Source: Brachybacterium squillarum M-6-3
GTDB lineage: Bacteria; Actinomycetota; Actinomycetes; Actinomycetales; Dermabacteraceae
DNA length: 64,000 nt
Assembly (NCBI RefSeq): GCF_000225825.1
Contig: NZ_AGBX01000006.1
Location: 62,001-126,000, forward strand
Direction of reading: 5' to 3'
A program made the translations under genes and the position numbers. Each line of letters opens with the position of its first letter. Position 1 is the first letter of the stretch. The notes below the pieces were generated by a model. The model searched no databases and was not told where the DNA came from. It worked only from the letters and a program-made list of their open reading frames with translations. Of this stretch, positions 4,019 to 61,321 are shown piece by piece.

Positions 4019-6190
4019 ATGACCGCGACCCCTCAGCACACCCCGAGTTCCGGCCCCGACGGCGCCCCCGTCGAGCCGGAGGAGATCCTGCACGCCCTGG
4101 ACCCGGAGCAGCGGCAGGTCGCCGCGACCTTCGGCAGTCCCGTCTGCGTGCTCGCGGGCGCCGGCACCGGCAAGACCCGCGCCATCACCCACCGCATCGC
4201 CTACGGCATCGCCACCGGACGGATGGACGCCCGCCACGTGCTGGCCGTGACCTTCACCGCGAAGGCAGCCGCCGAGATGCGCTCGCGGCTGCGGGACCTC
4301 GGGGTGCCCGCCGTGCAGGCCCGCACCTTCCACGCGGCCGCCCTGCGGCAGCTGCGCCACTTCTGGCCGCGCGTCGTCGGCGGGCCGATGCCCGAGATCA
4401 TGCCGAACAAGTACCCGGGCATCGCCGAGGCCTGCCAGCGCCTGCACATGAGCGTGGACCGCGCCGCCCTGCGCGACATCGTCGCCGAGGTGGAGTGGGC
4501 GCGGGTCTCGATGCTCACCCCCGAGAGCTACCCCCGCGCCGCCGAGCGCGCCCGCCGGCCCGGGGTGGCCGGCTTCGACGCCCGCTCGATCTCCCGGATC
4601 CTCACGCAGTACGAGGAGGTGAAGAAGGAGCGCGGCGTCATCGACTTCGAGGACGTGCTGCTGCACATGGTCGGCTTCCTCACCGAACGGCCCGACGTGG
4701 CCCGCGAGGTCCGCTCCCAGTACCGCCACTTCGTGGTCGACGAGTACCAGGACGTCTCCACTCTCCAGCACGCCCTGCTGCGGCTGTGGCTGGGCAGCAG
4801 CGACGACCTCTGCGTGGTGGGTGACGCCGCCCAGACCATCTACACCTTCGCCGGGGCACGCGCCGCCTTCCTGCTGGACTTCCCCCAGGAGTTCGGCCGC
4901 GCCCGCATCATCCGCCTGGAGCGCAACTACCGCTCCACCCCGCAGGTGGTGCGGATCGCCAACACGGTGCTGGACGGCGCCCGCGGCCGCACCCGCGATT
5001 CCCGCCTCACCCTGGTCTCCCAGCGCGAGGACGGCCCGCCGCCGCTGATCGAGTCCTACCCGGACGACCCCGCCGAGGCGGAGGGCGTCGCCTCCCGCAT
5101 CGCCGAGCAGGTCCGCGAGGGCCGCCCCGCCTCCGACATGGCGGTGCTGTTCCGCACCAACGGCCAGTCCGAGGCCCTCGAGCAGGCCCTCACCGGCCGC
5201 GGCATCGGCTACCTGGTGCGCGGCGGGGACCGCTTCTTCGAGCGCCAGGAGGTGCGGCGGGCGATGGTCGCGCTGCGCGCCGCCACCCGCGTCGAGCAGG
5301 TCGAACCCGACCGGGCCGTGCGGGACGTGCTCGCCCCGCTGGGCTGGGCACCGCAGGCCCCCGAGACCACCGGCGCCGTCCGCGAGCGCTGGGACTCCCT
5401 GAATGCCCTGGTGATGCTCGCCGACACGGTCCTGTCCCGGCCCGGCACCGGGCTGCCGGAGCTGGTGCGGGAGCTGGAGGAACGCGCCGAGGCGCAGTCC
5501 GCCCCCGTCGTCGACGGCGTCACCCTCGCCTCCGTGCACGCCGCCAAGGGTCTGGAGTGGCCCGCGGTGTACCTCATCGGCGCCAGCGAGGGGCTGCTGC
5601 CCATCTCGATGGCCTCCACCGCCGCCGAGGTCGAGGAGGAGCGGCGCCTGCTGTACGTCGCCCTCACCCGCGCCAAGGACCTGCTGACCATCTCGTGGTC
5701 CGCGGCCCGCACCCCCGGGGCGCGCGGCTCCCGCAAGCTCTCCCGCTTCCTGGACGGGGTGCGCACCACCGACGGTCCCGAGGGCTCCCGCGGCCCGGCG
5801 CCGCGCCGCACCGGACGGCGCAGCGCCACCGTGTACAGCGAGTGCCGCGTCTGCGGGCAGGGCCTGGTGGCCGCGGCCGACCAGCGCCGCGGGCGCCACG
5901 CCGGCTGCCCCGCCACCGGCCACGAGGCCGCGGCCGCCGCCCTGCGCAGCTGGCGCGAGGAGCGCGCCCGGGAGCTCGGTGCGCCGCCCTTCGCGGTGCT
6001 CACCGAGGCCGCCGTCGAGGCGATCGCCGAGCGCGACCCGCGCACCGAGGCTGAGCTGATGGCCGTGCCCGGGGTCGCCGAGCGGGTGCTGGCCCGCCAC
6101 CGGGAGGACGTGCTGGCGGTGCTCGCCGCACATCGCAGCGGGGCGGCGACGTCCTCCGGATCGGGAGCAGAACCGCAGGTCAAAAAATGA
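4019..6190 (+). CDS. uvrD2: ATP-dependent DNA helicase UvrD2
   Basis: Superfamily 1A 3'-5' helicase with a C-terminal HRDC domain, the actinobacterial UvrD2 architecture. Visible motifs in order: Walker A AGAGTGKT (about residue 46), Walker B VVDEYQDVS (about 240), QTIYTFAGA, LERNYRSTP, SVHAAKGLEWP (motif V) and LLYVALTRAKD (motif VI). A Cys cluster (CRVCG ... CP, about 607-628) links to the HRDC domain (about 650-700). Mycobacterial UvrD2 has a full tetracysteine here, and only three Cys are visible. The ATG at 4019 overlaps a GTG at 4016, either of which could be used. Its last codons form the A-rich tract that appears to be part of the whiB7 promoter. Confidence 0.92.
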   Translation: MTATPQHTPSSGPDGAPVEPEEILHALDPEQRQVAATFGSPVCVLAGAGTGKTRAITHRIAYGIATGRMDARHVLAVTFTAKAAAEMRSRLRDLGVPAVQARTFHAAALRQLRHFWPRVVGGPMPEIMPNKYPGIAEACQRLHMSVDRAALRDIVAEVEWARVSMLTPESYPRAAERARRPGVAGFDARSISRILTQYEEVKKERGVIDFEDVLLHMVGFLTERPDVAREVRSQYRHFVVDEYQDVSTLQHALLRLWLGSSDDLCVVGDAAQTIYTFAGARAAFLLDFPQEFGRARIIRLERNYRSTPQVVRIANTVLDGARGRTRDSRLTLVSQREDGPPPLIESYPDDPAEAEGVASRIAEQVREGRPASDMAVLFRTNGQSEALEQALTGRGIGYLVRGGDRFFERQEVRRAMVALRAATRVEQVEPDRAVRDVLAPLGWAPQAPETTGAVRERWDSLNALVMLADTVLSRPGTGLPELVRELEERAEAQSAPVVDGVTLASVHAAKGLEWPAVYLIGASEGLLPISMASTAAEVEEERRLLYVALTRAKDLLTISWSAARTPGARGSRKLSRFLDGVRTTDGPEGSRGPAPRRTGRRSATVYSECRVCGQGLVAAADQRRGRHAGCPATGHEAAAAALRSWREERARELGAPPFAVLTEAAVEAIAERDPRTEAELMAVPGVAERVLARHREDVLAVLAAHRSGAATSSGSGAEPQVKK

Positions 6191-6219
6191 TGGGCGGATT
6201 CTCGGGGGCTGTGTAGACT
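6182..6219 (+). promoter_or_regulatory. Putative WhiB7-responsive promoter of whiB7
   Basis: An A-tract (AAAAAATGA, 6182-6190) sits directly upstream of a poor -35 region (TGGGCG, 6191-6196). A 17-bp spacer leads to TAGACT (6214-6219), a fair -10. WhiB7 is known to activate promoters by using its AT-hook on AT-rich DNA just upstream of the -35 hexamer. This layout in a GC-rich genome therefore suggests autoactivation. The tract overlaps the 3' end of uvrD2. Confidence 0.6.
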
Positions 6220-6287
6220 GCCACTCGTCCATCGTCACAGTCGTGGCCCGGCAGGCCGGGGTACGCGCACCAGAAAGGAGGGGAACC

Positions 6288-6395
6288 ATGATCGATCAGG
6301 AGAATCTCGCGGTCGACGGCGGCGCCCCTCGCGGTGCGTCCTCCCTGTCCCACCGCTACCGGGGCTTTACTGCCCAGGTGCCGACCCGACACTGA
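6288..6395 (+). CDS. whiB7 leader peptide (upstream ORF, 35 aa)
   Basis: A short ORF with an almost ideal ribosome-binding site (AGAAAGGAGGGG, 6272-6283) 4 nt before ATG 6288, ending in TGA 6393-6395. Its predicted product starts MIDQENLAVDGG and ends QVPTRH. It lies in the 5' leader of whiB7. In mycobacteria and Streptomyces a translated uORF senses ribosome inhibition and controls attenuation of whiB7. Its ribosome-binding site is far stronger than that of whiB7 itself. The stop codon touches the first of three hairpins. The peptide resembles nothing I know beyond this arrangement. Confidence 0.72.
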   Translation: MIDQENLAVDGGAPRGASSLSHRYRGFTAQVPTRH

Positions 6396-6454
6396 CGAGG
6401 TTCGACCTCGCTGCGGGGCGGCACCATCGCCGCCCACGGAGCCGTTCCGGCTCC
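6396..6454 (+). promoter_or_regulatory. whiB7 leader attenuator: three consecutive hairpins
   Basis: Immediately after the uORF stop lie three perfect inverted repeats: CGAGGT/ACCTCG (6396-6401 with 6405-6410), GGGCGGC/GCCGCCC (6416-6422 with 6429-6435) and GGAGCCG/CGGCTCC (6438-6444 with 6448-6454). Such hairpins fit a ribosome-mediated attenuator. A stalled or absent ribosome on the uORF would change which hairpins form. No clear U-tract follows the last stem, so whether it terminates transcription is uncertain. Confidence 0.65.
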
Positions 6455-6479
6455 CCACGACTTTCGAAGCAGCGAGACG

Positions 6480-6752
6480 ATGACCTCCACCACCTTCCCG
6501 TTCCCCATCACGGCGGCGGCGATGCTGCCCTGCCACGAGGCCGAGGCGGCCGACCTCTTCTTCTCCGAGCGGCCCGCGGACCTGGAACAGGCCAAGCAGC
6601 TCTGCACCGGCTGCCCCCTGATGCAGGAGTGCCGCCAGGGAGCCTTGGACCGCGCCGAGCCCTGGGGCGTCTGGGGCGGGGCGATCTTCGAGGCCGGGCA
6701 GATCATCGCGGTCAAGCGCGGCCGTGGACGCCCCCGAAAGAACGCCGCCTGA
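6480..6752 (+). CDS. whiB7: WhiB7-family iron-sulfur transcription factor
   Basis: Small redox/antibiotic-stress regulator that works with the primary sigma factor to switch on intrinsic resistance genes. The 90-residue product has four Cys for a [4Fe-4S] cluster (C18, C42, C45, C51), the G-V-W-G-G turn at 63-67, and the C-terminal AT-hook RGRGRPRK at about 80-87 that marks WhiB7 within the Wbl family. The position next to uvrD2 is the same as in mycobacteria. The ATG at 6480 has only a weak Shine-Dalgarno (GCGAG), consistent with control through the structured leader. It should be monocistronic. Confidence 0.93.
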   Translation: MTSTTFPFPITAAAMLPCHEAEAADLFFSERPADLEQAKQLCTGCPLMQECRQGALDRAEPWGVWGGAIFEAGQIIAVKRGRGRPRKNAA

Positions 6753-6915
6753 GCCCGGGCCTCCCCCTCTCCGCCCTCACCCCTCACCACACCCGGGCCT
6801 GCCCCTCCCACGTCGAGCTCTTCATGGTTGCGTCCGAGGCGGCCCGAAGGCGCACTCTCGAAGAGCTCGACGCGGTGGCCGAGGAGGGGCCGTGAGGGCG
6901 CGGGGCCCTGGACCA

Positions 6916-6971
6916 CGAGATCCACGTTCGGGTTGCCCTGTCGCCTCAGGGCAACCCGAACGTGGATCTCG
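6916..6971. repeat. Perfect 24-bp inverted repeat (long hairpin)
   Basis: The arm at 6916-6939 (starting CGAGATCCACG) is exactly complementary to 6948-6971, with 8 nt between the arms (GTCGCCTC), whose outer G and C could pair as well. It lies about 165 bp downstream of whiB7 and 76 bp before the next palindrome. It could be a transcription terminator without a T-tract, or a dispersed palindromic repeat. No second copy was seen in this window. Confidence 0.8.
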
Positions 6972-7046
6972 GCACCCGGCACGGGAAAGGCCTCCCCGCG
7001 GCCGGGTCGGGTGGCGCCTCGGCATTCGGAAGGGCCCGGACAGCGA

Positions 7047-51624: not shown

Positions 51625-52725
51625 ATGACTGTCATCGGGATCGACGCTCACAAGGACTGGCACACGCTCGTCGCGGTGGACGAGGTGGGCCGGAGGATCA
51701 AAGAGCTCACGGTCGAAGCACGTGCCGTGGGGCATCGGAAGATCTTGACCTGGCTGGAAGGCTTCGAGACCGTCACCGTCGCGGTCGAGGACTGCCGCCA
51801 CCTGACCCGTCGGCTCGAGGCTGACCTGCTCGAGGCCGGCCATCGAGTCGTTCGCGTGCACACCAGGTTGATGGCTGGCATGAGGCGCAGCAGCCGGGAA
51901 CGCGGCAAATCGGATCCTATTGATGCGGAAGCCGTGGCCCGGGTAGCACTTCGCGAAGAGGGATTGCCGACCGCTGAGCTGCCGGGCACTTCCCGGGACA
52001 TCAAGCTTCTGTCGGACCATCGCAGGAGCCTGGTTGCACGGCGCACAGCGATGCAGTCCAAGGCACGCTGGTTCCTCCACGAAATCGATCCTGAGCTGGA
52101 GATTCCCTCTCGTGCTCTGCGCCGGTACCACCTCCTGGACGAGCTGGTCGAGTACCTGGCGACAGCTGACGGAGCGGTCGCCGAGATCGCTCGCGACCTG
52201 CTGGTCGATATTCGCGAGCTGACAGTCAGGATCAACACGCTCGAGAGCCGCTTGAGCCGGCTGGTGCGGGCCGACCATCCCTCACTGGTCGCTGTCCCGG
52301 GCATGGGTACCTTGGGCGCAGCGATGATCATTGGCGAGACAGCGGGGATCGCCAGGTTTCGCTCCCGCGATGCCTACGCAAGATTCAACGGCACTGCGCC
52401 GATCCCGGTCTGGTCAGGGAACAAGGTGCGTGTTCGACTCTCGCGTGGAGGGAACCGCACGATCAACACCGCCCTGCACATGGCTGCCCTCACTCAGATT
52501 CGAATAGGCGCGGAAGGCGCCACCTACTACGACAAGCTCATTGCCGCCGGCAAGACTCGCAAAGAGGCGCTGCGGCTCCTACGACGTCGACTCTCAGATC
52601 GCATCTACGCCGCGCAGAGGGCCGACCTGGCCCCTGTCACCCAGACGCCCGAGGGTGGTGCCCCATTGGAGGAGCAGTCGCCGATCGAGCATCCTGCGTC
52701 GTCGATGCCGCTCATGGCCGCCTGA
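51625..52725 (+). CDS. IS110-family DEDD recombinase (transposase)
   Basis: A 366-residue protein with the RuvC-like DEDD domain (GIDAHKDWHTLVAVD at 5-19; VAVEDCRHLTRRL at about 52). The C-terminal transposase_20 domain reads LVAVPGMGTLGAAMIIGETA, then FNGTAPIPVWSGN and LSRGGNRTINTALH with the catalytic Ser. It looks intact. Together with a bridge RNA it would cut and rejoin donor and target sites. Confidence 0.92.
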   Translation: MTVIGIDAHKDWHTLVAVDEVGRRIKELTVEARAVGHRKILTWLEGFETVTVAVEDCRHLTRRLEADLLEAGHRVVRVHTRLMAGMRRSSRERGKSDPIDAEAVARVALREEGLPTAELPGTSRDIKLLSDHRRSLVARRTAMQSKARWFLHEIDPELEIPSRALRRYHLLDELVEYLATADGAVAEIARDLLVDIRELTVRINTLESRLSRLVRADHPSLVAVPGMGTLGAAMIIGETAGIARFRSRDAYARFNGTAPIPVWSGNKVRVRLSRGGNRTINTALHMAALTQIRIGAEGATYYDKLIAAGKTRKEALRLLRRRLSDRIYAAQRADLAPVTQTPEGGAPLEEQSPIEHPASSMPLMAA

Positions 52726-52798
52726 GCGATCCAACTTGACATAGGAGCATCGGGGAGCTCGACCCCCGCGGCCGCTGATCTGTGCCTTCATCGACGAG

Positions 52799-53443
52799 AT
52801 GCGCCCCGAAGGCTATGCAGTCGAGTCGATCCTGAGGGTCCTGCGCCAGCAGGGCCTCGTGATCGCTGCACGCACCTACCGGGCCTGGAAACGCCCGGCC
52901 CGGATCGCGGCCCGCACCGTCACCGACGCCCTGGTCGAGAACAAGATCCGCGACCTCGCCTGGATGCCCAACCCGGTCACCAGGCAGGTCCAGATGACGC
53001 CGGAGGGCCTGTATGGCCGCCGGAAATGGACCGCTCTGCTGCGTCGCCAGGACGGCCTCGCGGGCACGTCCCGTGGGGCAGTGGACCGGGCGATGCGGAC
53101 CCTCGGCCTCGAGGGCATCCGACGGGCGAAGAAGCTCCGCACCACCATCCCCGACCCTGACGGGAAACGGGCAGGTGACCTGCTGAACCGAGACTTCACC
53201 GCAGCGGCCCCGAACCGGGTCTGGGTCACAGATTTCACCTACGTCCGCACCTGGGCAGGGTTCGTCTACGTCGCGTTCATCGTGGACGTCTTCGCCCAGC
53301 GGATCATCGACTGGCACGCCAGCTCCAGCAAGAAGGTCGACCTGGTGATGACCCCGCTGCGCATCGCCCTGTGTCAGCGGGAACGAGAGGGAAACCGGGT
53401 CTCACCAGGTGATTTGATCCATCACAGCGATGCCGGATCTCAA
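52799..53443 (+). pseudogene. IS3 orfB transposase, 5' fragment
   Basis: In-frame from about 52.77 kb (RPLICAFIDEMRPEGY) with the HTH_21 region, then an integrase core: VWVTDFTYV (first Asp) and LIHHSDAGSQ (second Asp). It is broken at 53443 by the IS30 insertion, before the catalytic Glu. The start is normally provided by a -1 ribosomal frameshift from orfA. Confidence 0.88.
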
Positions 53444-54940
53444 GGCGGATTCAACAGGTCGTCGCAACACCTTGATGTCGGAGGTGTTCGAGCATGGCCA
53501 CAAAGGACTGGACCAAGAAGACGAGCGACGCGGCAGAGGAGCTTCGTCGGCAATGGCGTGCTGACCGGGCGCTGAGACCGCCGATGCGCTCGCCCGGACG
53601 TCCAGACCCGTCCCGGGAGGTGCAACGGCAGTTCTGGCGTCTGATCGCCACGGGCATCACGTCGGCAGAAGCGGCGCTCGCGGTCGGCGTGTCCGTGCCG
53701 GTCGGGTCCCGCTGGTTTCGCCACGCTGGCGGCATGCCGCCCATCTCGCTTGCTGAGCCCACCGGCCGATACCTGAGCTTCGAGGAACGCGAGGAGATCG
53801 CCATCCTGCACGCCCAGGACAAGGGCGTTCGCGAGATCTCCCGCGTGATCGGGCGTGACCCCGGAACCGTCTCACGCGAGCTGCGCCGCAACGCGGCGAC
53901 TCGTGGCGGGAAGCTGGAGTACCGGGCCACGGTCGCCCAGTGGAAGGCGCAGCAGGCGGCCAAGCGGCCCAAGGTCGCGAAGCTTCTCAAGAACGAGAAC
54001 TTGCGCCAATACGTCCACGAGCGGCTCGCCGGCGATGTTCGCCGGCCCGACGGCACGATCGTCACGGGCCCCACCCCGGCCCCGTGGAAGGGGCTGAACA
54101 AGCCGCACCGAGCGGACCGGCGGTGGTCGCTGGCCTGGAGCCCGGAACAGATCTCTCAGCGCCTGAAGCTCGACTTCCCCGATGATGAGTCCATGCGCAT
54201 CAGCCACGAGGCGATCTACCAGTCGCTGTTCATCGAGGGCCGGGGGGCGCTCCAGCGAGAACTGGTCACCTGTCTTCGCACCGGTCGCGCGTTACGGCGT
54301 CCCCGGGCCCGGTCACGGAACAAGCCCGGTGGGCATGTCACGGCCGATGTGATCCTCAGCGAACGCCCCGCGGAAGCCGAGGACCGCGCCGTGCCCGGTC
54401 ACTGGGAAGGCGACTTGATCATCGGCACAGGCAGGTCGGCGATCGGGACGATCGTTGAGCGCAGCAGCCGCTCAACGATCCTGGTCCACTTGCCCCGCAT
54501 GGAGGGCTGGGCAGAGAAACCCCATGTAAAGAACGGGCCATCGCTGGGCGGCTACGGGGCCGTCGCGATGAACGCGGCGCTGAGTGCATCGATCACCACG
54601 CTGCCCGAACAGCTGCGCAAGACCCTAACCTGGGATCGCGGGAAGGAGCTCTCGGGGCACGCGCAGTTCGCGATGCAGACCGGCACGAAGGTGTTCTTCG
54701 CAGACCCCCATTCACCGTGGCAGCGACCGACGAACGAGAACACCAACGGCCTGCTCCGCCAGTACTTCCCCAAAGGCACAGACCTCTCGCGATGGTCCGC
54801 CGGGGACCTCGAGGCCGTCGCTCACGCACTCAACAACCGCCCCCGAAAGGTCCTCCAGTGGAAGACACCCGCCGAAGTTTTCGAAGAGCAACTACGCTCG
54901 CTACAACAACCCGGTGTTGCAACGACTGGTTGAGCCCACG
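53444..54940 (+). mobile_element. IS30-family insertion sequence (copy 1), intact
   Basis: 1497 bp flanked by a 3-bp target duplication CAA (53441-53443 and 54941-54943). Removing it joins the HHSDAGSQ codons to YTAIRLTE and restores IS3 orfB. The ends form imperfect inverted repeats (about 21 of 28 bases; both with the core TCAAC ... GTCG and GCAACACC). The length is rather long for IS30 because of an N-terminal extension of the transposase. Confidence 0.9.
53494..54933 (+). CDS. IS30-family transposase
   Basis: A 479-residue DDE transposase. After a basic N-terminal extension with an extra HTH-like segment, the IS30 HTH (LSFEEREEIAILHAQDKGVR, about 92-111) is followed by the core: HWEGDLIIG (first Asp), TWDRGKEL (second Asp) and PTNENTNGLLRQYFPKG (Glu). 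All catalytic residues are intact. It lies 50 bp from the left inverted repeat. Confidence 0.93.
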   Translation: MATKDWTKKTSDAAEELRRQWRADRALRPPMRSPGRPDPSREVQRQFWRLIATGITSAEAALAVGVSVPVGSRWFRHAGGMPPISLAEPTGRYLSFEEREEIAILHAQDKGVREISRVIGRDPGTVSRELRRNAATRGGKLEYRATVAQWKAQQAAKRPKVAKLLKNENLRQYVHERLAGDVRRPDGTIVTGPTPAPWKGLNKPHRADRRWSLAWSPEQISQRLKLDFPDDESMRISHEAIYQSLFIEGRGALQRELVTCLRTGRALRRPRARSRNKPGGHVTADVILSERPAEAEDRAVPGHWEGDLIIGTGRSAIGTIVERSSRSTILVHLPRMEGWAEKPHVKNGPSLGGYGAVAMNAALSASITTLPEQLRKTLTWDRGKELSGHAQFAMQTGTKVFFADPHSPWQRPTNENTNGLLRQYFPKGTDLSRWSAGDLEAVAHALNNRPRKVLQWKTPAEVFEEQLRSLQQPGVATTG

Positions 54941-55290
54941 CAATACACCGCCATTCGACTGACCGAGCTTCTCGCCCTTGAAGGGATCGCCCCGGCGATC
55001 GGGACCGTCGGCGACGCCTTCGATAACGCGCTGATGGAGACGATCAACGGGCTCTACAAGACCGAGTGCATCCGCACCACCGTCTTCCACGCCGGCCCCT
55101 TCCGCACCCTCGCGGACGTCGAGTTCGCAACCGCCGGCTGGGTCAACTGGTACAACAACCGCCGCCTCCACGGCTCCCTCGGAATGCTCACCCCGGTAGA
55201 GTCCGAGACGCTCCACTACGAGGCCCTCACCCGAGAGCCCCACCCCGCAAAGTCGCGGCAGAGAACCCGGGCCGATTCAGAAGACGCCGG
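54941..55290 (+). pseudogene. IS3 orfB transposase, 3' fragment
   Basis: It continues the orfB frame with AIRLTELLALEGIAPAIGTV, ALMETINGLYKTE (catalytic Glu) and the C-terminal WVNWYNNRRLHGSLGMLTP. The last visible IS3-like residues are around HPAKSRQRTRAD. The end runs into IS256 sequence without a proper IS3 terminus. Confidence 0.85.
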
Positions 55291-55301
55291 GTGGGCCTTC
55301 G

Positions 55302-56612
55302 GGCCAGGACCTGGTCGAGCAGTTGAAGGAAGCGGGGCAGCTGGACGCGCCGTTCGCTCAGATCGACGCCGGCCAGGTCGAGCTGACCGGGGACGGTGGG
55401 TTCGTGCCCGCGCTGGTCAAGGCCGCGCTCGAGCGGGGCCTGCAGGCGGAGCTGAGCAGCCATCTCGGCTACGAGTAGGGCTCCGACGACGCGTCGAAGC
55501 ACGCCAACTCGCGTAATGGGACGACGCAAAAGACGATGGATTACGAGGTCGGGCCGATCGCGCTGGACGTCCCCAGGGACCGTGCTGGCTCGTTCACGCC
55601 ACGCCTGGTTCCGAAAGGCCAGCGGCGCCTGGGAGGCCTCGATGACATGATCATCAGCCTCTACGCCAGCGGGATGACGAAGCGGGACATCCAGCACCAT
55701 CTGGCATCCACGCTGGGCACGGACCTGTCGCACGAGACGATCTCGAACATCACCGACGCGGTCCTCGAGGAAGTCGCCGCGTGGCTAGCGAGGCCGCTGG
55801 AGGAGTTCGATCCCGTCCTTTACCTCGACGCGATCCGGATCAAGATCCGGGAGAACAGCCAGGTCATCAGCCGCGCGGCGAATATCGCGGTCGGCGTGGA
55901 CCTCGACGGGATCAAGCACGTGCTGGGGATCTGGGTCCAGGACGCCGAGGGGTCGGCGTTCTGGGCCCAGGTCTGCGCTGACCTGGCCAATTGCGTTGTG
56001 CGGGACGTGCTGATCGTGTGCTGCGACGGCCTGAAGGGCCTGCCGGAAGCGGTCGAGGCGACGTGGCCGGACTCGATGGTCCAGACCTGCGTGGTCCACC
56101 TGATCCGCGCCGCCACGCGGTTCGTGGCCTACCAGGATCGCAAGAAGGTCGCTGCCGCGTTGAAGCCGATCTACACCGCCGCGAGCGAGGACGCGGCCTG
56201 GACGGCGCTGGTGGAGTTCGAGGCTTCGCCGCTGAGGCAGAAGTACCCCCAGGCGGTGATGACCTGGAAGAACTCGTGGGACCGGTTCACCCCGTTCCTC
56301 CAGTTCCCGCCGATGCTGCGGAAGGTCATCTACACGACCAACGCCATCGAGTCGTTGAACTACCAGCTGCGGAAGGTCACGAAGAACCGGGGCCACTTCC
56401 CCTCGACGGACGCGGTCGTGAAGCTGCTCTGGCTGGCGATCTGCAACATCGAGGACAAACGCGCCGCCGGTCGTGCCAGGGACCGCGGCGAGCCCGCGAA
56501 CGAGCGGAAGGCCCAGGGGCGGCTCGTCGAGGGCCAGGTCGTCACGAAGTGGAAGCAGGCCCTCGCCCAACTTGCCGCTGCCTACCCCGACCGGATCACC
56601 CCCTACCTGTGA
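55302..56612 (+). pseudogene. IS256-family transposase with internal TAG stop
   Basis: Mutator-type transposase: QDLVEQLKEAGQLDA at the start, then HLGYE followed by TAG (55476-55478) where relatives have Lys, then the long intact part from 55536. Catalytic motifs are present: LYLDAIRIKIRE (Asp), VCCDGLKGLPEAV (Asp) and TTNAIESLNYQLR (Glu). The 5' end is fused to the IS3 remnant, and no start or left inverted repeat is visible. Translation from an internal start (ATG 55536, 358 residues) would lack the N-terminal region, so activity is unlikely. Confidence 0.85.
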
Positions 56613-56889
56613 ACACCCCGCTTACACAGACAAATTGACAAGCCCCCTGGCTGCGACACAGAACGGAACCCAGAGCGCTTCAACCCGAAAGTCACGTCGA
56701 CCGGGAGTGTTGCTTCGGCACCGTGAGACGATCGAGTGTAGATACACGCTACTAAGCGATAGTCAAGCCTTCAAATATTCAATCGATACACACCTCCGAG
56801 AAAAAGTCAAGCCTTTACATGTCCGATCGGCAGATGCAAGCTTCGAGCAGCAGAACCTTCCCAGCATCACTTCCATGAAAGTTGAAAAA
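56613..56889. other. Junction region between IS256 and the cargo genes
   Basis: It contains the IS256 right end (TTACACAGACAAATTGACAA, about 56621-56640), the IS30 end relic at 56698-56729 and an AT-richer stretch (56740-56880) that should hold the promoter of the secreted-protein gene. No other gene was seen. Confidence 0.5.
56698..56729. mobile_element. Relic of an IS30 right end
   Basis: The first 17 bases (CGACCGGGAGTGTTGCT) are identical to the right end of IS30 copy 2 (59452 on) and about 11 of the next 17 also match, in the same orientation. No transposase remains beside it. It suggests that a related IS30 once lay to the left of the cargo genes. Confidence 0.6.
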
Positions 56890-57867
56890 ATGAGAAAAGC
56901 TAGAATTGCATGCCTGACACTTGTCGGGGTCATGGCGACGACCACGATGGGCCTTGGGGTCGCGAGTGCAGAGCAACCGGAGGTGACTGATCAAGTCCTC
57001 GCCGCGGTTGGTGGAGGCGTCATCGACGGTAATATTGACGTAAAGAGTGAAGCCAACAGTTTCTCAGGCGAGGCAGGCGATGGTTCCACAGTGCACATCC
57101 CAATCAAGGGCGAGGAGGGTATTGTTCTGAGCTCCGCCGACGAGGACCTGTCTGATCTAGCCCTTGTTCTTCCCGACGGTGACAATGTTGATTCAGCAGA
57201 AGAGTCCGACCTTGGAGGCGTGAGATTTGAGAACAGTGATGGCACTAGCAGTACCGTACTTCCAAAGGATGATGGATCAGTTCAGGTTGCTACCGTCATT
57301 CCAGACTCGAATTCTCCACGTAGCTTCACCTATGAGATTCACGGCAGCTCTGGAGGCTCCCTCGTCCTCGAGAGCGACGGTAGCGTTTCTGTGCTAGATG
57401 CCAGCGGCGAATGGGAGGGTGGGGTGAGTGCGCCATGGGCCACGGATGCGGATGGAAATTCCGTGCCAACCAGTTACACGGTGGACGGGAATCGGCTTAC
57501 TCAGCACGTGGAATTTTCAGAGGAAACGGCGTTTCCGGTTGTTGCTGACCCTTGGTTGGGTAAGGCTCTCATAAAGAAGGCCGTTTGGGCCAATGGCCTA
57601 TGGAAGTATAGTCCCACCCTCAAGGTGTACCCGACAACGTGGGGCCGCTGGACCGGAGCCGGGGCGCGGTGGTCAGCCTGGAAAGAGACCCTTGATAAGA
57701 CACCTCGCAGAGGGCACCCGAATCCCAACACTACCACAATGAAACTGCAATTCTACTGCCATTTCGACGTCGTTCGATACCGAGCCCCGAACAAGGAAAG
57801 TTGGAATCTGGACACCAAGATCCCTAATCGTGGATACACGGGTTTTGTTAAGAATGGATGCAACTGA
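56890..57867 (+). CDS. Secreted DUF2599-like protein, island cargo
   Basis: A 325-residue exported protein. The signal peptide (MRKARIACLTLVGVMATTTM ..., cleavage after about VASA) leads into an acidic, Ser/Asp/Gly-rich beta-type region (about 30-220). A C-terminal domain of about 100 residues follows (LKVYPTTWGR, TTTMKLQFYCHFDVVRY, APNKESWNLD, ending VKNGCN), with two Cys. This resembles the actinobacterial DUF2599 domain, whose function is unknown. The gene is clearly AT-richer than the chromosome and uses different codons, so it was acquired. An earlier in-frame ATG (56875) is possible. A small membrane protein gene begins one base after its stop. Confidence 0.78.
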   Translation: MRKARIACLTLVGVMATTTMGLGVASAEQPEVTDQVLAAVGGGVIDGNIDVKSEANSFSGEAGDGSTVHIPIKGEEGIVLSSADEDLSDLALVLPDGDNVDSAEESDLGGVRFENSDGTSSTVLPKDDGSVQVATVIPDSNSPRSFTYEIHGSSGGSLVLESDGSVSVLDASGEWEGGVSAPWATDADGNSVPTSYTVDGNRLTQHVEFSEETAFPVVADPWLGKALIKKAVWANGLWKYSPTLKVYPTTWGRWTGAGARWSAWKETLDKTPRRGHPNPNTTTMKLQFYCHFDVVRYRAPNKESWNLDTKIPNRGYTGFVKNGCN

Positions 57868-57868
57868 C

Positions 57869-58204
57869 ATGAATACAGTCCGCCGAATCCCTTTATTTCT
57901 CGGTGCTGCCGCGGGAGCCTCTCTCGTGATACTCAATGTAGTCACCGCCACTTTTTACCTGCTCTGGATGGGTGCTGACCAATGGTTGGTTAATCGGTCT
58001 GAAAGTGGTGGCGGATTCGACCCCAGTCAACTTCCTCCGTACACTCATGCTACTTGGTTCGCCGCACATGCCACCATGCTTTCGCTCGTGGTCCTGGATG
58101 TAATTGCCGTCGCGGCAGTCGTTCTTCTCATTCGTGGAAACCGAAGGCAAGCAGATGCCCCGGCAGCTGTCAATCTCCCACATCCTTCTGTGCACCAGGC
58201 CTGA
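57869..58204 (+). CDS. Small two-helix membrane protein, partner of the secreted protein
   Basis: A 111-residue protein with two transmembrane helices (about 8-33 and 63-87) joined by an extracytoplasmic loop (MGADQWLVNRSESGGG...). The ATG at 57869 is one base past the stop of the secreted protein, so translation is coupled. The base composition is similarly low in GC. No family is recognised. The gene order, secreted product then small membrane protein, matches bacteriocin/immunity or exporter-helper pairs; this is inference. Confidence 0.7.
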   Translation: MNTVRRIPLFLGAAAGASLVILNVVTATFYLLWMGADQWLVNRSESGGGFDPSQLPPYTHATWFAAHATMLSLVVLDVIAVAAVVLLIRGNRRQADAPAAVNLPHPSVHQA

Positions 58205-58380
58205 TGAAGGCTGAAGGGGAGTTGGGGTGTCACTCTCTAGTGAAGGCGTCCGTGATGACTGTGAATTACTCCGACTCCGATGGGGTTTTGATCCCACGAG
58301 ATATCTTGGTGTGACATCTTGGGGCATCGTTCGCTGATGTCTCGGAACATCGTTCATGAAGAAGGGCCCCGACTCCTGCC

Positions 58381-59488
58381 GGGTGGTGTCAAAGCGTCGA
58401 AGCAACATGGGGCTCGCCGGCCAGTAGTCGAGTGAATGATTCTGTCGGTGTCAGGAAGCCGAGCCGGCGGCGGGGGCGGTTGTTGATCTCCTCCGCGATC
58501 GTGGTGAGGTAGGGCTGGTGATCGGGGATCGCGGTTCCCTTGGGCAAGTACTCGCGGTAGAGCCGGTTGGTGTTCTCGTTGGACGGTCGTTGCCACGGGG
58601 AGTGGGGGTCGGCGAAGTAGACCGGCATCGACGTGGCCAGGGAGACCTTCGCGTGCTGAGCCATTTCGCTGCCCTGGTCCCAGGCCAGCGAGGTTCGCAT
58701 CATCTCGGGCAGCTCGTTGAAGTACTCGATGACCGCGTCCGCTGTCGTCTCGGCGTGCTTCGAGGGCAGGGCCAGCAGGCCGGTGAACCCGCTCATCCGC
58801 TCCACCAGCGTCGCCGCGCATGAGGTGCCGTTCTTCCCGATGATCAGGTCGCCCTCCCAGTGCCCGGGCACGCGTCGCTCAGCGGCGTCCTCGCCCCGCT
58901 CGCTCAGCGGCACCATCCCCACGATCGGCCCGCCCCGAGACCGGCCGGTCGTGCGGGGCTTGCGCCGAGTGCGCTTGGACTGCAGGAAGATGCCGCGCCG
59001 GGCGAGCTCGCCTTTGGGGATGGCGTAGATGTACTGGTAAATCGCTTCGCCGGAGACCGTGCGGCCCTGCGCGTCGGGTGAGTTCGCCACACGGCCAACA
59101 GTCGGGTCTGTGGCTTCCAGACGCAAGCGACCCGCGATCTCGTTCGGCGTCCACGACGCGGCCAGATCCGCCTCCACCCGCGCCTTCAGCACCGGATCTC
59201 TGGCGACCTTCCGCTGCTGCGGACGCGCCCGGCGACGCTGCGCGGCCACGTCCGCGGTGACGGCCTGATAGCCGCGGGTCTTCGTCGTGTTCCGCCGGAT
59301 CTCCCGCGAGACCACAGACGGACATCGGCCCAGGTGACGAGCGATTCTCCGCACGCCCCACCCTGCCTTCGACGCGGTGGAAATCTCCGACCGCTCACCA
59401 AACGACAACCCCACCCGCGCCATCAGCACCCTCACCCGTCGATACCCCCACCGACCGGGAGTGTTGCTACGACGCTATGACACCGCCC
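58381..59488 (-). mobile_element. IS30-family insertion sequence (copy 2), intact
   Basis: 1108 bp bounded by 27-bp inverted repeats (58381-58407 and 59462-59488) with three mismatches; the shared core is GGTGTCA, then AGCGTCG and AGCAACA. It carries one transposase gene on the minus strand. It lies within the loop of a terminator-like palindrome (58358-58371 with 59489-59502). No certain target duplication was identified. Confidence 0.9.
58389..59435 (-). CDS. IS30-family transposase
   Basis: A 348-residue DDE transposase of normal length. The N-terminal HTH (GVRRIARHLGRCPSVVSREI) and the core HWEGDLIIGKNG (first Asp), LAWDQGSEM (second Asp) and PSNENTNRLYREYLPKG (Glu) are intact. It is only distantly similar to the IS30 transposase at 53494. 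The C-terminus reaches into the left inverted repeat region. Confidence 0.93.
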   Translation of the reverse strand: MRVLMARVGLSFGERSEISTASKAGWGVRRIARHLGRCPSVVSREIRRNTTKTRGYQAVTADVAAQRRRARPQQRKVARDPVLKARVEADLAASWTPNEIAGRLRLEATDPTVGRVANSPDAQGRTVSGEAIYQYIYAIPKGELARRGIFLQSKRTRRKPRTTGRSRGGPIVGMVPLSERGEDAAERRVPGHWEGDLIIGKNGTSCAATLVERMSGFTGLLALPSKHAETTADAVIEYFNELPEMMRTSLAWDQGSEMAQHAKVSLATSMPVYFADPHSPWQRPSNENTNRLYREYLPKGTAIPDHQPYLTTIAEEINNRPRRRLGFLTPTESFTRLLAGEPHVASTL

Positions 59489-59510
59489 CGGGGTCCTTCT
59501 TCTTTGGCTG

Positions 59511-59837
<327 letters not shown>

Positions 59838-61321
59838 GGGCTCTTCGCAGATGAGGGTGTAGGAGCTGTCGGCGCGGCAGTGTCGGGATAGGCGTCGAGG
59901 CCTCCCGATGATGGAAGTTCTCAAGCTGCCCATCTGGAAGACCTCGACGTGGACAACGCTACCTTCAGCTCGCCGGATCTCGACGCGTTCTGCATGCTCG
60001 ACCGCCTCGGCCTCACAGCCCCCGGACAACGCCTCGAACAAGACCAGGCTGTGCTGCAGTGCCGCTCCCGCGAGCCCGACCCGTGGTGCCGAGCCTGCGG
60101 GACCAAGGGCGTCGCAGTGGGCATGGTCCCTCGTCCCCTCGCTCATGGCCCTCTGGGGTGGCGACCCACGCTCCTGCAAGTCAGGGTCCGCCGCTACCGC
60201 TGCGAGCACTGCCAGCTGGTCTGGCGCGAAGACCTCGACCAGGCCGCTGCTCCCCGCTCGAAACTGACCCGCCACGCAGTCCTGTGGGCGCTGAAAGCAC
60301 TGGTCATGGACCGCATGTCGATCTCCCGGATCGCCACGGCACTTGGCGTTGCCTGGCACACCGTGAACACTGCCGTCCTCGACCTCGGCCACCAGCTGCT
60401 CATCGATGACCCGTCCCGGTTCGACGGGGTCCGAGTGATCGGCGTGGACGAGCACGTGTGGCGCCACGCCCCGGGCAGGGACCGCTTCGTCACCGTCATC
60501 ATCGACCTCACCCCTATCCGCGAGGCGACCGGCCCCTCCCGGCTGCTGGACATGGTGCCGGGCCGCTCGAAGAAGGTCCTCGCGACCTGGCTGAACGAGC
60601 AACCGCCCGGGTTCCGGGACGGGGTCGAGGTGGTCGCGATGGATGGGTTCACGGGCTTCAAGACCGCCGCGGCTGAGCAGCTGCCCGCTGCGGTCGCGGT
60701 GATGGACCCCTTCCACGTGGTCGCACTGGCAGGGGATGCCCTGGACCGGTGCCGGCAACGCATCCAGCAACAGACGCGCGGGCATCGGGGGCGTTCCGGG
60801 GACCCGCTCTACGGCATCCGCCGCACGCTACGGACCGGGGTGGACTTGCTGACCGGCCGGCATTGCGACCGTCTTACCAGCGTCTTCGCGACGGATCAGC
60901 ATGCGGCGGTGGAGGCGACCTGGGGGATCTACCAGAGGATCGTGCAGGCCAACCGCCGCGACAACCGCGCGACAGGGAAGCAGGAACTGAGTTCGGTGAT
61001 CAGTGCCCTCGCCAAGGACGTCCCGGCCGCGCTGAGCGAGGTCACCACGCTGGGCCGGACCCTGAAACGCCGAGCCGAGGACGTCCTGGCCTACTTCGAC
61101 CGTCCCGGCACCAGCAACGGCCCCACGGAGGCGATCAATGGCCGGCTCGAGCACCTCCGCGGCACCGCCCTGGGCTTCCGCAACCTCGCCCACTACATCA
61201 CCCGCGCCCTGCTCGACACCGGAGGCTTCAGACCCGCCCAACACCCTCAATTGCGATGAGCCCGTATAGGCACCCGCCGACACCGCACCTGCAAACCCCT
61301 TCCACCTCTGGGGTGAATCCC
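59838..61321 (+). mobile_element. ISL3-family insertion sequence
   Basis: An ISL3 transposase gene with about 110 bp before and 60 bp after it. The left end GGGCTCTTCGCAGATGAGGG resembles known ISL3 termini. The right end, read on the other strand, starts GGGATTCACCCCAGAGGTG, an imperfect inverted repeat. An 8-bp target duplication was not found, so the borders are provisional. Confidence 0.78.
59949..61259 (+). CDS. ISL3-family transposase
   Basis: A 436-residue transposase. The N-terminal zinc-finger (CRACG ... CEHC, about 47-81) and HTH (SISRIATALGVAWHTVNTAV) precede the DDE core: VIGVDEHVW (first Asp), VVAMDGFTGFKTAA (second Asp) and SNGPTEAINGRLEHLRG (Glu). It looks complete. Confidence 0.93.
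   Translation: MDNATFSSPDLDAFCMLDRLGLTAPGQRLEQDQAVLQCRSREPDPWCRACGTKGVAVGMVPRPLAHGPLGWRPTLLQVRVRRYRCEHCQLVWREDLDQAAAPRSKLTRHAVLWALKALVMDRMSISRIATALGVAWHTVNTAVLDLGHQLLIDDPSRFDGVRVIGVDEHVWRHAPGRDRFVTVIIDLTPIREATGPSRLLDMVPGRSKKVLATWLNEQPPGFRDGVEVVAMDGFTGFKTAAAEQLPAAVAVMDPFHVVALAGDALDRCRQRIQQQTRGHRGRSGDPLYGIRRTLRTGVDLLTGRHCDRLTSVFATDQHAAVEATWGIYQRIVQANRRDNRATGKQELSSVISALAKDVPAALSEVTTLGRTLKRRAEDVLAYFDRPGTSNGPTEAINGRLEHLRGTALGFRNLAHYITRALLDTGGFRPAQHPQLR

Follow-up and report, generated by a model that had tools for sequence, protein, structure and literature searches.

What is the function of two adjacent genes of low GC content lying among insertion sequences in Brachybacterium squillarum M-6-3? 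An earlier note, made from the DNA alone, had described a pair AT-richer than the chromosome, coding for an exported protein with a two-Cys C-terminal DUF2599-like domain and for a small two-helix membrane protein starting one base after it. In the window (the whole 64,000-nt stretch that was analysed), the first gene (56890..57867, + strand) encodes a predicted secreted proprotein of 325 aa, P0001, identified by its ORF and a Pfam DUF2599 match; if translation began instead at the in-frame ATG at 56875, the protein would be five residues longer. The second gene (57869..58204, +) begins one base past the P0001 stop codon. It encodes a 111-aa protein, P0002, with two hydrophobic segments on the Kyte-Doolittle scale, which we predict to be an immunity protein from its ORF, these segments and the co-occurrence documented below; an alternative start at 57854 would give 116 aa and a 14-nt overlap with the P0001 gene. 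GC fractions are 0.549 and 0.548 for the two genes; the window as a whole has 0.721, and its first 50 kb have 0.738. Composition, signal-type start, two-Cys DUF2599 end and downstream two-helix gene were thus all found as first described.

P0001 can be divided into four parts. A predicted Sec signal peptide (residues 1-27, ..VASA/EQ; 56890..56970, +) was recognized by eye from the sequence, and most of its residues have a pLDDT below 50 in the AlphaFold2 model. It is followed by an acidic pro-region (56971..57549, +; pI 4.05) including the N-domain shared with other proteins (residues ~60-221), as judged from an N-domain HMM, the charges and a beta-supersandwich-like model. At the VADP junction (57541..57552, +), conservation and the start of predicted mature CLB (see below) lead us to predict a cut between D220 and P221. 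The predicted mature effector (57550..57864, +) is a DUF2599 domain of 105 aa, 12.2 kDa and computed pI 10.2: Pfam PF10783 matches residues 230-325 with E 1.1e-17 and 64.8 bits for a cut-off of 25. This end contains 18 K+R for 5 D+E, eight Trp and two Cys, and the net charge passes from -26 in the front part of P0001 to +13 at its C-terminal end.

The N-terminal part of P0001 has no family in Pfam or NCBIfam. NCBIfam gave no match for P0001, P0002 or ten relatives, PADLOC none for P0001 and P0002, and PHROGs none for these two and the Microbacterium phage Min1 protein, the Paenibacillus phage BN12 protein having a single weak hit, to a family of unknown function. Genome contigs gave no relative with a single-protein query, and viral contigs gave none either; a three-row alignment searched against the genome contigs gave 50 loci. 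With an HMM built on residues 60-222 of P0001, 96 distinct ORFs were collected in 155 loci, a few of them weak, from Actinomycetota, Bacillota, one Paenibacillus phage and one Microbacterium phage. After filtering on completeness, C-terminal length, score and flank or domain length, 87 were used for the partner test, 78 for charge and 76 for clustering. These 76 compared proteins have in common the region of about 160 aa that precedes DUF2599 in P0001.

The ends carried by the N-domain are of many kinds. BLAST at E 1e-3 sorted the 76 proteins into 18 C-terminal clusters (ten singletons), or 17 without one broken gene, an upper estimate since such clusters can split distant relatives; the singleton L106 is an out-of-frame stretch. 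The DUF2599 cluster has 20 members, linked by an ad hoc sequence signature beyond BLAST: L003 and L008 were taken as DUF2599 by this signature, Pfam being weak (24.3 bits at the L003 locus, under the cut-off, and none listed for L008). Closticin-like helical ends number nine, including the phage 'putative closticin', and DUF4258 ends two, one above the Pfam cut-off (L082) and one below (L076). The end of L090 has an EndoU-like match, also below the cut-off. Among plasmid proteins, those under N-domain matches are annotated DUF4258, and TNT appears under a partial N-domain match.

N-domains carrying unlike ends can be close. Those of L057 (DUF2599) and L076 (DUF4258) are 50% identical, and that of P0001 shares 40-41% identity with both L076 and L108 (DUF2599), and 47-52% with its two closest DUF2599 relatives. 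Median pairwise N-domain identity is 34% within a C-terminal cluster and 30% between clusters. Such close N-domains with unlike ends, and such similar medians, are the pattern expected from domain swapping; a shared N-terminal part with exchangeable C-terminal domains, as in polymorphic toxins, was found across the 76 proteins.

Two further groups were observed. Streptomyces proteins of about 900-1020 aa (L117, L119, L123, L144) carry the N-domain followed by closticin-like or other small ends; small TM genes lie behind three of the four, and similar plasmid proteins are annotated DNRLRE. In Nonomuraea and relatives (L127, L130-L132, L134-L136, L138, L139, L148), N-domain proteins have a conserved Cys-containing end. 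At most of these loci, what begins 65-123 nt downstream is not a small immunity-like gene but one for a protein of about 1,700-1,770 aa.

We then considered the junction between N-domain and end. In 14 aligned sequences P216, A219 and D220 are invariant and P221 nearly so, the N-domain typically ending in P[VI][VI]ADP. According to excerpts of a published study (PMC10888436), closticin 574 is made as a preprotein of 309 aa and trimmed to a peptide of 82 aa; for mature CLB, predicted to have 83 aa, the primer codes for PDWSKIAA. In the closticin-like ends collected here, the residue after ..ADP is N, D or S and the next one is W; counted from behind this P, 83 residues remain in L114 and 82 each in L143 and L154. 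Compared by eye, the CLB start predicted in these excerpts appears to be the P of VAD|P, as proposed for P0001, which by the same rule would release 105 residues.

Asp-Pro bonds are acid-labile, so that self-cleavage at the conserved bond of VAD|P is conceivable. The two sides of the junction also differ in charge: in 78/78 proteins the C-terminal part has a more positive charge than the N-domain (medians +9 versus -13). DUF2599 ends behind an N-domain are positive in 18 of 20 cases (median +5.5), whereas those lacking an N-domain are mostly negative (median -5; p 7e-9 for the difference).

The AlphaFold2 model of P0001, based on 25 sequences, has a mean pLDDT of 84.8 and a pTM of 0.79. Its N-domain is beta-rich and of the supersandwich kind by VIA fold comparison, the matches including the GLMP luminal domain (Z 11.4, rmsd 3.5, 181 aligned), the YidC periplasmic domain (Z 10.3, rmsd 3.1, 148 aligned), lyases and mutarotases. 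In the model, this likeness to beta-supersandwich proteins shows a fold class rather than a function. Foldseek found no match at E 0.001 or better for the whole P0001 model, nor for the 105-aa DUF2599 model against the pdb and viral sets, and a PDB sequence search gave no significant match. The best VIA match of the DUF2599 model is at Z 2.6, rmsd 4.5 and 75 aligned; a weak or missing match does not imply a new fold.

Whether a membrane gene accompanies DUF2599 elsewhere was examined with one fixed partner test: a start -35 to +60 nt from the stop codon, a length of 40-180 aa and at least one hydrophobic segment, TM segments being taken from a Kyte-Doolittle window rather than a dedicated predictor. 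A small TM gene lies directly behind 16/20 N-domain DUF2599 genes (15/19 without a near-duplicate), compared to 20/355 among the remaining long ORFs in these loci and in the window, these controls being mechanical ORFs and not verified genes. With a stricter control, filtered on codon-position GC, 17/312 passed, and 4/81 among members with a signal-like start. Two of the four failures have a single-TM gene slightly further away, at +84 nt (L003) and +95 nt (L008); L062 has a lipoprotein-like neighbour and L058 no neighbour. Taking N-domain genes of every cargo type, 51/87 passed and 36/87 failed, and for DUF2599 genes without the N-domain only 4/40 passed and 36/40 failed. Behind the DUF4258-type gene the neighbour is a soluble DUF2283 protein in 3/3 loci examined, that is, in three of the four plasmid or genome carriers seen (all but H5).

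Partners of different DUF2599 loci are mostly alike in topology, with sequence likeness mostly undetectable. All nine distinct two-TM partners have a negative loop between neutral to positive ends; by the positive-inside rule, this would place the acidic loop outside, facing the mostly basic secreted protein. In the P0002 type of partner, this predicted outer loop carries the motif NR.E..GFDP. Homologues of P0002 itself are rare: they occur in 2/198 genomes of the order, its own included, and in 9/213 genomes of the family of the second one, and none was found in plasmids. Three of these nine further genomes, all Actinomyces, have the homologue behind a DUF2599 gene. In G768 and G800 a single copy lies behind, and overlaps, a gene 47-48% identical to P0001. 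Actinomyces israelii (L106) carries two tandem copies behind a DUF2599 gene (6004-7007) whose N-domain and end are in two frames, with the break at the junction. N-domain and DUF2599 end are likewise in separate frames in L065, split at or near the VADP junction. The co-occurrence of DUF2599 with a small membrane gene, put forward by the earlier note as the point to verify, therefore exists beyond B. squillarum, as a layout in 16/20 loci and at the sequence level in three genomes.

In the other six of the nine genomes the partner stands alone, and no match to the effector alignment was found anywhere in these genomes (including G213), in a search that covered the nine partner-bearing genomes among the 213 of that family. 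Five of the six orphan partners have an intact frame of 104-146 aa, and the sixth (G789) is truncated. Candidate protectors directly downstream, together with orphans and duplicates, are another trait of polymorphic toxins, protection itself being predicted here. Duplication of a protector gene, or its persistence without an effector, is what one would expect if it confers immunity, but not if it helps in export. An export role for P0002 was considered and set aside, as it fails to explain the orphan partners and the soluble partners of DUF4258 cargo. The proposal of a secreted effector or antimicrobial with a membrane partner, left undecided between immunity and export in the earlier note, is thus supported in its immunity version: the type of partner shifts with the C-terminal type, it was duplicated once, and it is kept without an effector.

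From the sequence evidence, we estimate at about 75% the probability that the pair encodes an antibacterial protein, secreted and activated by cleavage, together with the cognate immunity protein in the membrane. The preproprotein of 325 aa would leave the cell via the Sec route, its acidic beta-rich pro-region keeping the cationic DUF2599 end harmless or soluble until the cut. Cleavage at the conserved VAD|P would free a 105-aa, 12.2-kDa basic protein rich in Trp, which would act at the envelope of related bacteria. On the producer, the membrane protein, with both ends inside and its acidic loop outside, would bind or shield the effector or its target. What the sequences show directly is the anatomy of a secretion-type protein, its family membership, the polymorphism of the C-terminal ends, the coupling of the two genes, their opposite charges, and partners that are duplicated or orphaned; export, cut, killing, envelope target and immunity are what we infer for this pair.

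DUF2599 also exists outside this architecture. We analysed 56 of 57 DUF2599 places, the other one being the second piece of the same G207 gene. Loci L013-L051 (for example L013, L017, L030) form a separate class without the N-domain, mostly lipoprotein-like and with mostly acidic ends; a lipobox-like motif is present in 34/40 of the N-domain-less proteins. They are common in one family of the order (31/55 genomes with a match) and are probably a housekeeping relative. They share with P0001 and with HvnA the C-terminal position of PF10783, and differ from it in lacking the N-domain, in their mostly acidic ends and, for 36/40, in having no small TM gene in the test window. A side case is L060 (G247): this 205-aa secreted-type DUF2599 protein lacks the N-domain, a three-TM gene begins 12-18 nt behind it, and it may represent a reduced version of the secreted DUF2599/membrane-partner system.

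It can be asked whether the DUF2599 protein is instead secreted for binding or signalling at the envelope of the producer itself, with the membrane protein as receptor, anchor or export helper. The frequency of the mostly lipoprotein-like N-domain-less class points in this direction, as do two published observations known to us from excerpts, which suggest non-toxic roles: Pseudomonas HvnA has DUF2599 as its C-terminal part (PMC3510237), and the domain stands at the top of a table listing the 50 Pfam categories with the greatest expansion in mycobacteria (PMC3388012). Given HvnA and the N-domain-less proteins, DUF2599 is probably not always an antibacterial effector, and it is possible that a binding role was adapted here. 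Cargo swapping on the same N-domain, the soluble DUF2283 neighbours of DUF4258 cargo and the retention of the partner in six genomes without an effector-alignment match all argue against an own-envelope protein in this locus, and we regard it as unlikely.

An antibacterial protein could also work differently, the C-terminal end entering the target cytoplasm and DUF2599 acting as an enzyme instead of attacking membrane or wall. The same N-domain bears DUF4258, EndoU-like and closticin-like ends, of which nuclease-type variants would need to enter the cytoplasm, and the invariant Q, C, H and N residues of DUF2599 could be catalytic. The division of neighbours, soluble for DUF4258 (3/3) and in the membrane for DUF2599 (16/20), speaks rather for an effector acting at the envelope; that no enzyme fold was matched is a weak argument on the same side. 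We consider cytoplasmic entry quite improbable, and keep the envelope-directed antibacterial protein with its immunity partner as the preferred reading.

This reading was compared with known systems. Like closticin 574/CLB, P0001 has a signal-type start, a long proprotein and a C-terminal, presumably active part of about 80-105 residues (compared via CLB and BN12). The phage BN12 'putative closticin' also has a small TM gene next door, and tblastn with P0001 finds it at E 2e-13 over residues 64-221, with 117 bits by the N-domain HMM. A signal-type start with a related pro-region is hence shared with the BN12 protein, rather than established against closticin 574 itself. Homology does not extend to the C-terminus, the DUF2599 end of P0001 and the closticin ends being in separate clusters; the former carries CH and CN residues and is not a helical hydrophobic end. 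CLB synthesized in vitro showed no activity against either of two indicators, as stated in excerpts of PMC10888436. In the excerpted closticin literature, we found no immunity gene described for the N-domain family.

With polymorphic toxins, as presented in excerpts of a review (PMC3482391), the family shares a constant N-terminal part, exchangeable ends and adjacent, orphan or duplicated candidate protectors. Differently from them, P0001 and ten relatives show no repeat, T6SS, T7SS or releasing-peptidase domain in Pfam; instead of toxin-delivery domains, P0001 has nothing more than a signal-type start and a single domain for which Pfam has no model. DUF4258 was not found in the 300,000 characters of this review that were covered, nor is the review among the open-literature mentions of DUF2599. 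A type VII toxin was rejected, the Pfam scan giving no such domain and the protein having a signal-type start. Lactococcin 972 is likewise a secreted bacteriocin locus type of Gram-positive bacteria, and one N-domain gene (L069) lies close to a Lactococcin_972 gene. Membership of that family was rejected for P0001, which at E up to 1 matches only DUF2599 and not Lactococcin_972, and P0001 has a two-TM protein as its neighbour in place of a large multi-TM protein. The statement of the earlier note that no described system is of this kind has thus to be narrowed: closticin 574-type bacteriocins and polymorphic toxins share this proprotein plan, and what was not found described, in the excerpted open literature, is DUF2599 as a bacteriocin cargo or the N-domain family.

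The pair was also said to be enclosed by IS elements, and transposase genes do lie on either side. Upstream is a Mutator/IS256-type transposase gene (55536..56612, also given to 56609; +; Pfam Transposase_mut, E 7.1e-94), and downstream an IS30-type one (58389..59435, -; Pfam HTH_38 and rve) followed by an ISL3 transposase gene (59949-61256, +; Pfam), with IS110 and further rve/IS30-type genes at 51.6-55.5 kb. Taken as a whole, the 10 kb at 51625-61259 is a pile-up of IS-type transposases (IS110, rve/IS3-like, IS30-type twice, IS256-type, ISL3). A 32-nt stretch (56698..56729, +), 81% identical to 59452-59483 at the end of the downstream IS30-type element, is a putative IS30-type end remnant. 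Next to it, upstream of the P0001 gene, sequence comparison revealed a 44-nt imperfect tandem repeat (56741..56828, +; copies 70% alike), both copies of which contain AGTCAAGCCTT. From its sequence the repeat may represent candidate regulatory sites or an operator; a sigma-70 consensus scan found no promoter-like site upstream of the pair.

Composition and IS context point to a pair that was acquired. Among 38 Brachybacterium genomes searched, P0001 is matched in seven, its own included, at eight places, three of which run beyond residue 236 and five end at residues 225-236. There is no close copy in the other 37, the best relative in the genus being 39% identical.

That the pair is a decayed, IS-trapped remnant, ancestrally antibacterial and now unexpressed, would agree with its packing between IS elements, with the negative promoter scan and with the existence of related genes that are split in A. 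israelii and G115, yet both frames, the QxxCH and CN residues, VADP and the gene spacing are intact, which makes it very improbable.

Other members are carried by mobile DNA. In B. nesterenkovii the pair sits on a contig of 6,133 bp whose termini overlap by 55 bp and which also encodes Relaxase, MobC and Replicase; judging by these features, this is the setting of a small bacteriocin plasmid. N-domain genes are also found in 23 plasmid records. Two phages encode N-domain proteins, Microbacterium phage Min1 (L155, orf64/orf65) and Paenibacillus phage BN12 (L154), in both cases with adjacent small TM genes and annotated holin genes close by, which suggests bacteriocin cargo in phages.

Extended from this locus to the family, the proposal is that the N-domain marks an uncatalogued, cross-phylum class of Sec-secreted polymorphic bacteriocins. 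Their acidic beta-supersandwich pro-region would mask interchangeable cationic effectors, released at an Asp-Pro bond, perhaps by self-cleavage; the genes would travel on small mobilizable plasmids, phages and IS-rich islands, and DUF2599 would be a new antibacterial fold neutralised by two-helix membrane proteins. For this broader proposal we see the balance as even. It would give a testable function to DUF2599, present in many actinobacteria, and to a pro-region without a Pfam or NCBIfam family, and would bring scattered hypothetical proteins of Actinomycetota, Bacillota and phages under one secretion-and-release plan with about 17 cargo clusters in our sample. As a candidate immunity gene lies beside many of the cargoes, new antibacterial proteins and their protectors may be readable directly from genomes.
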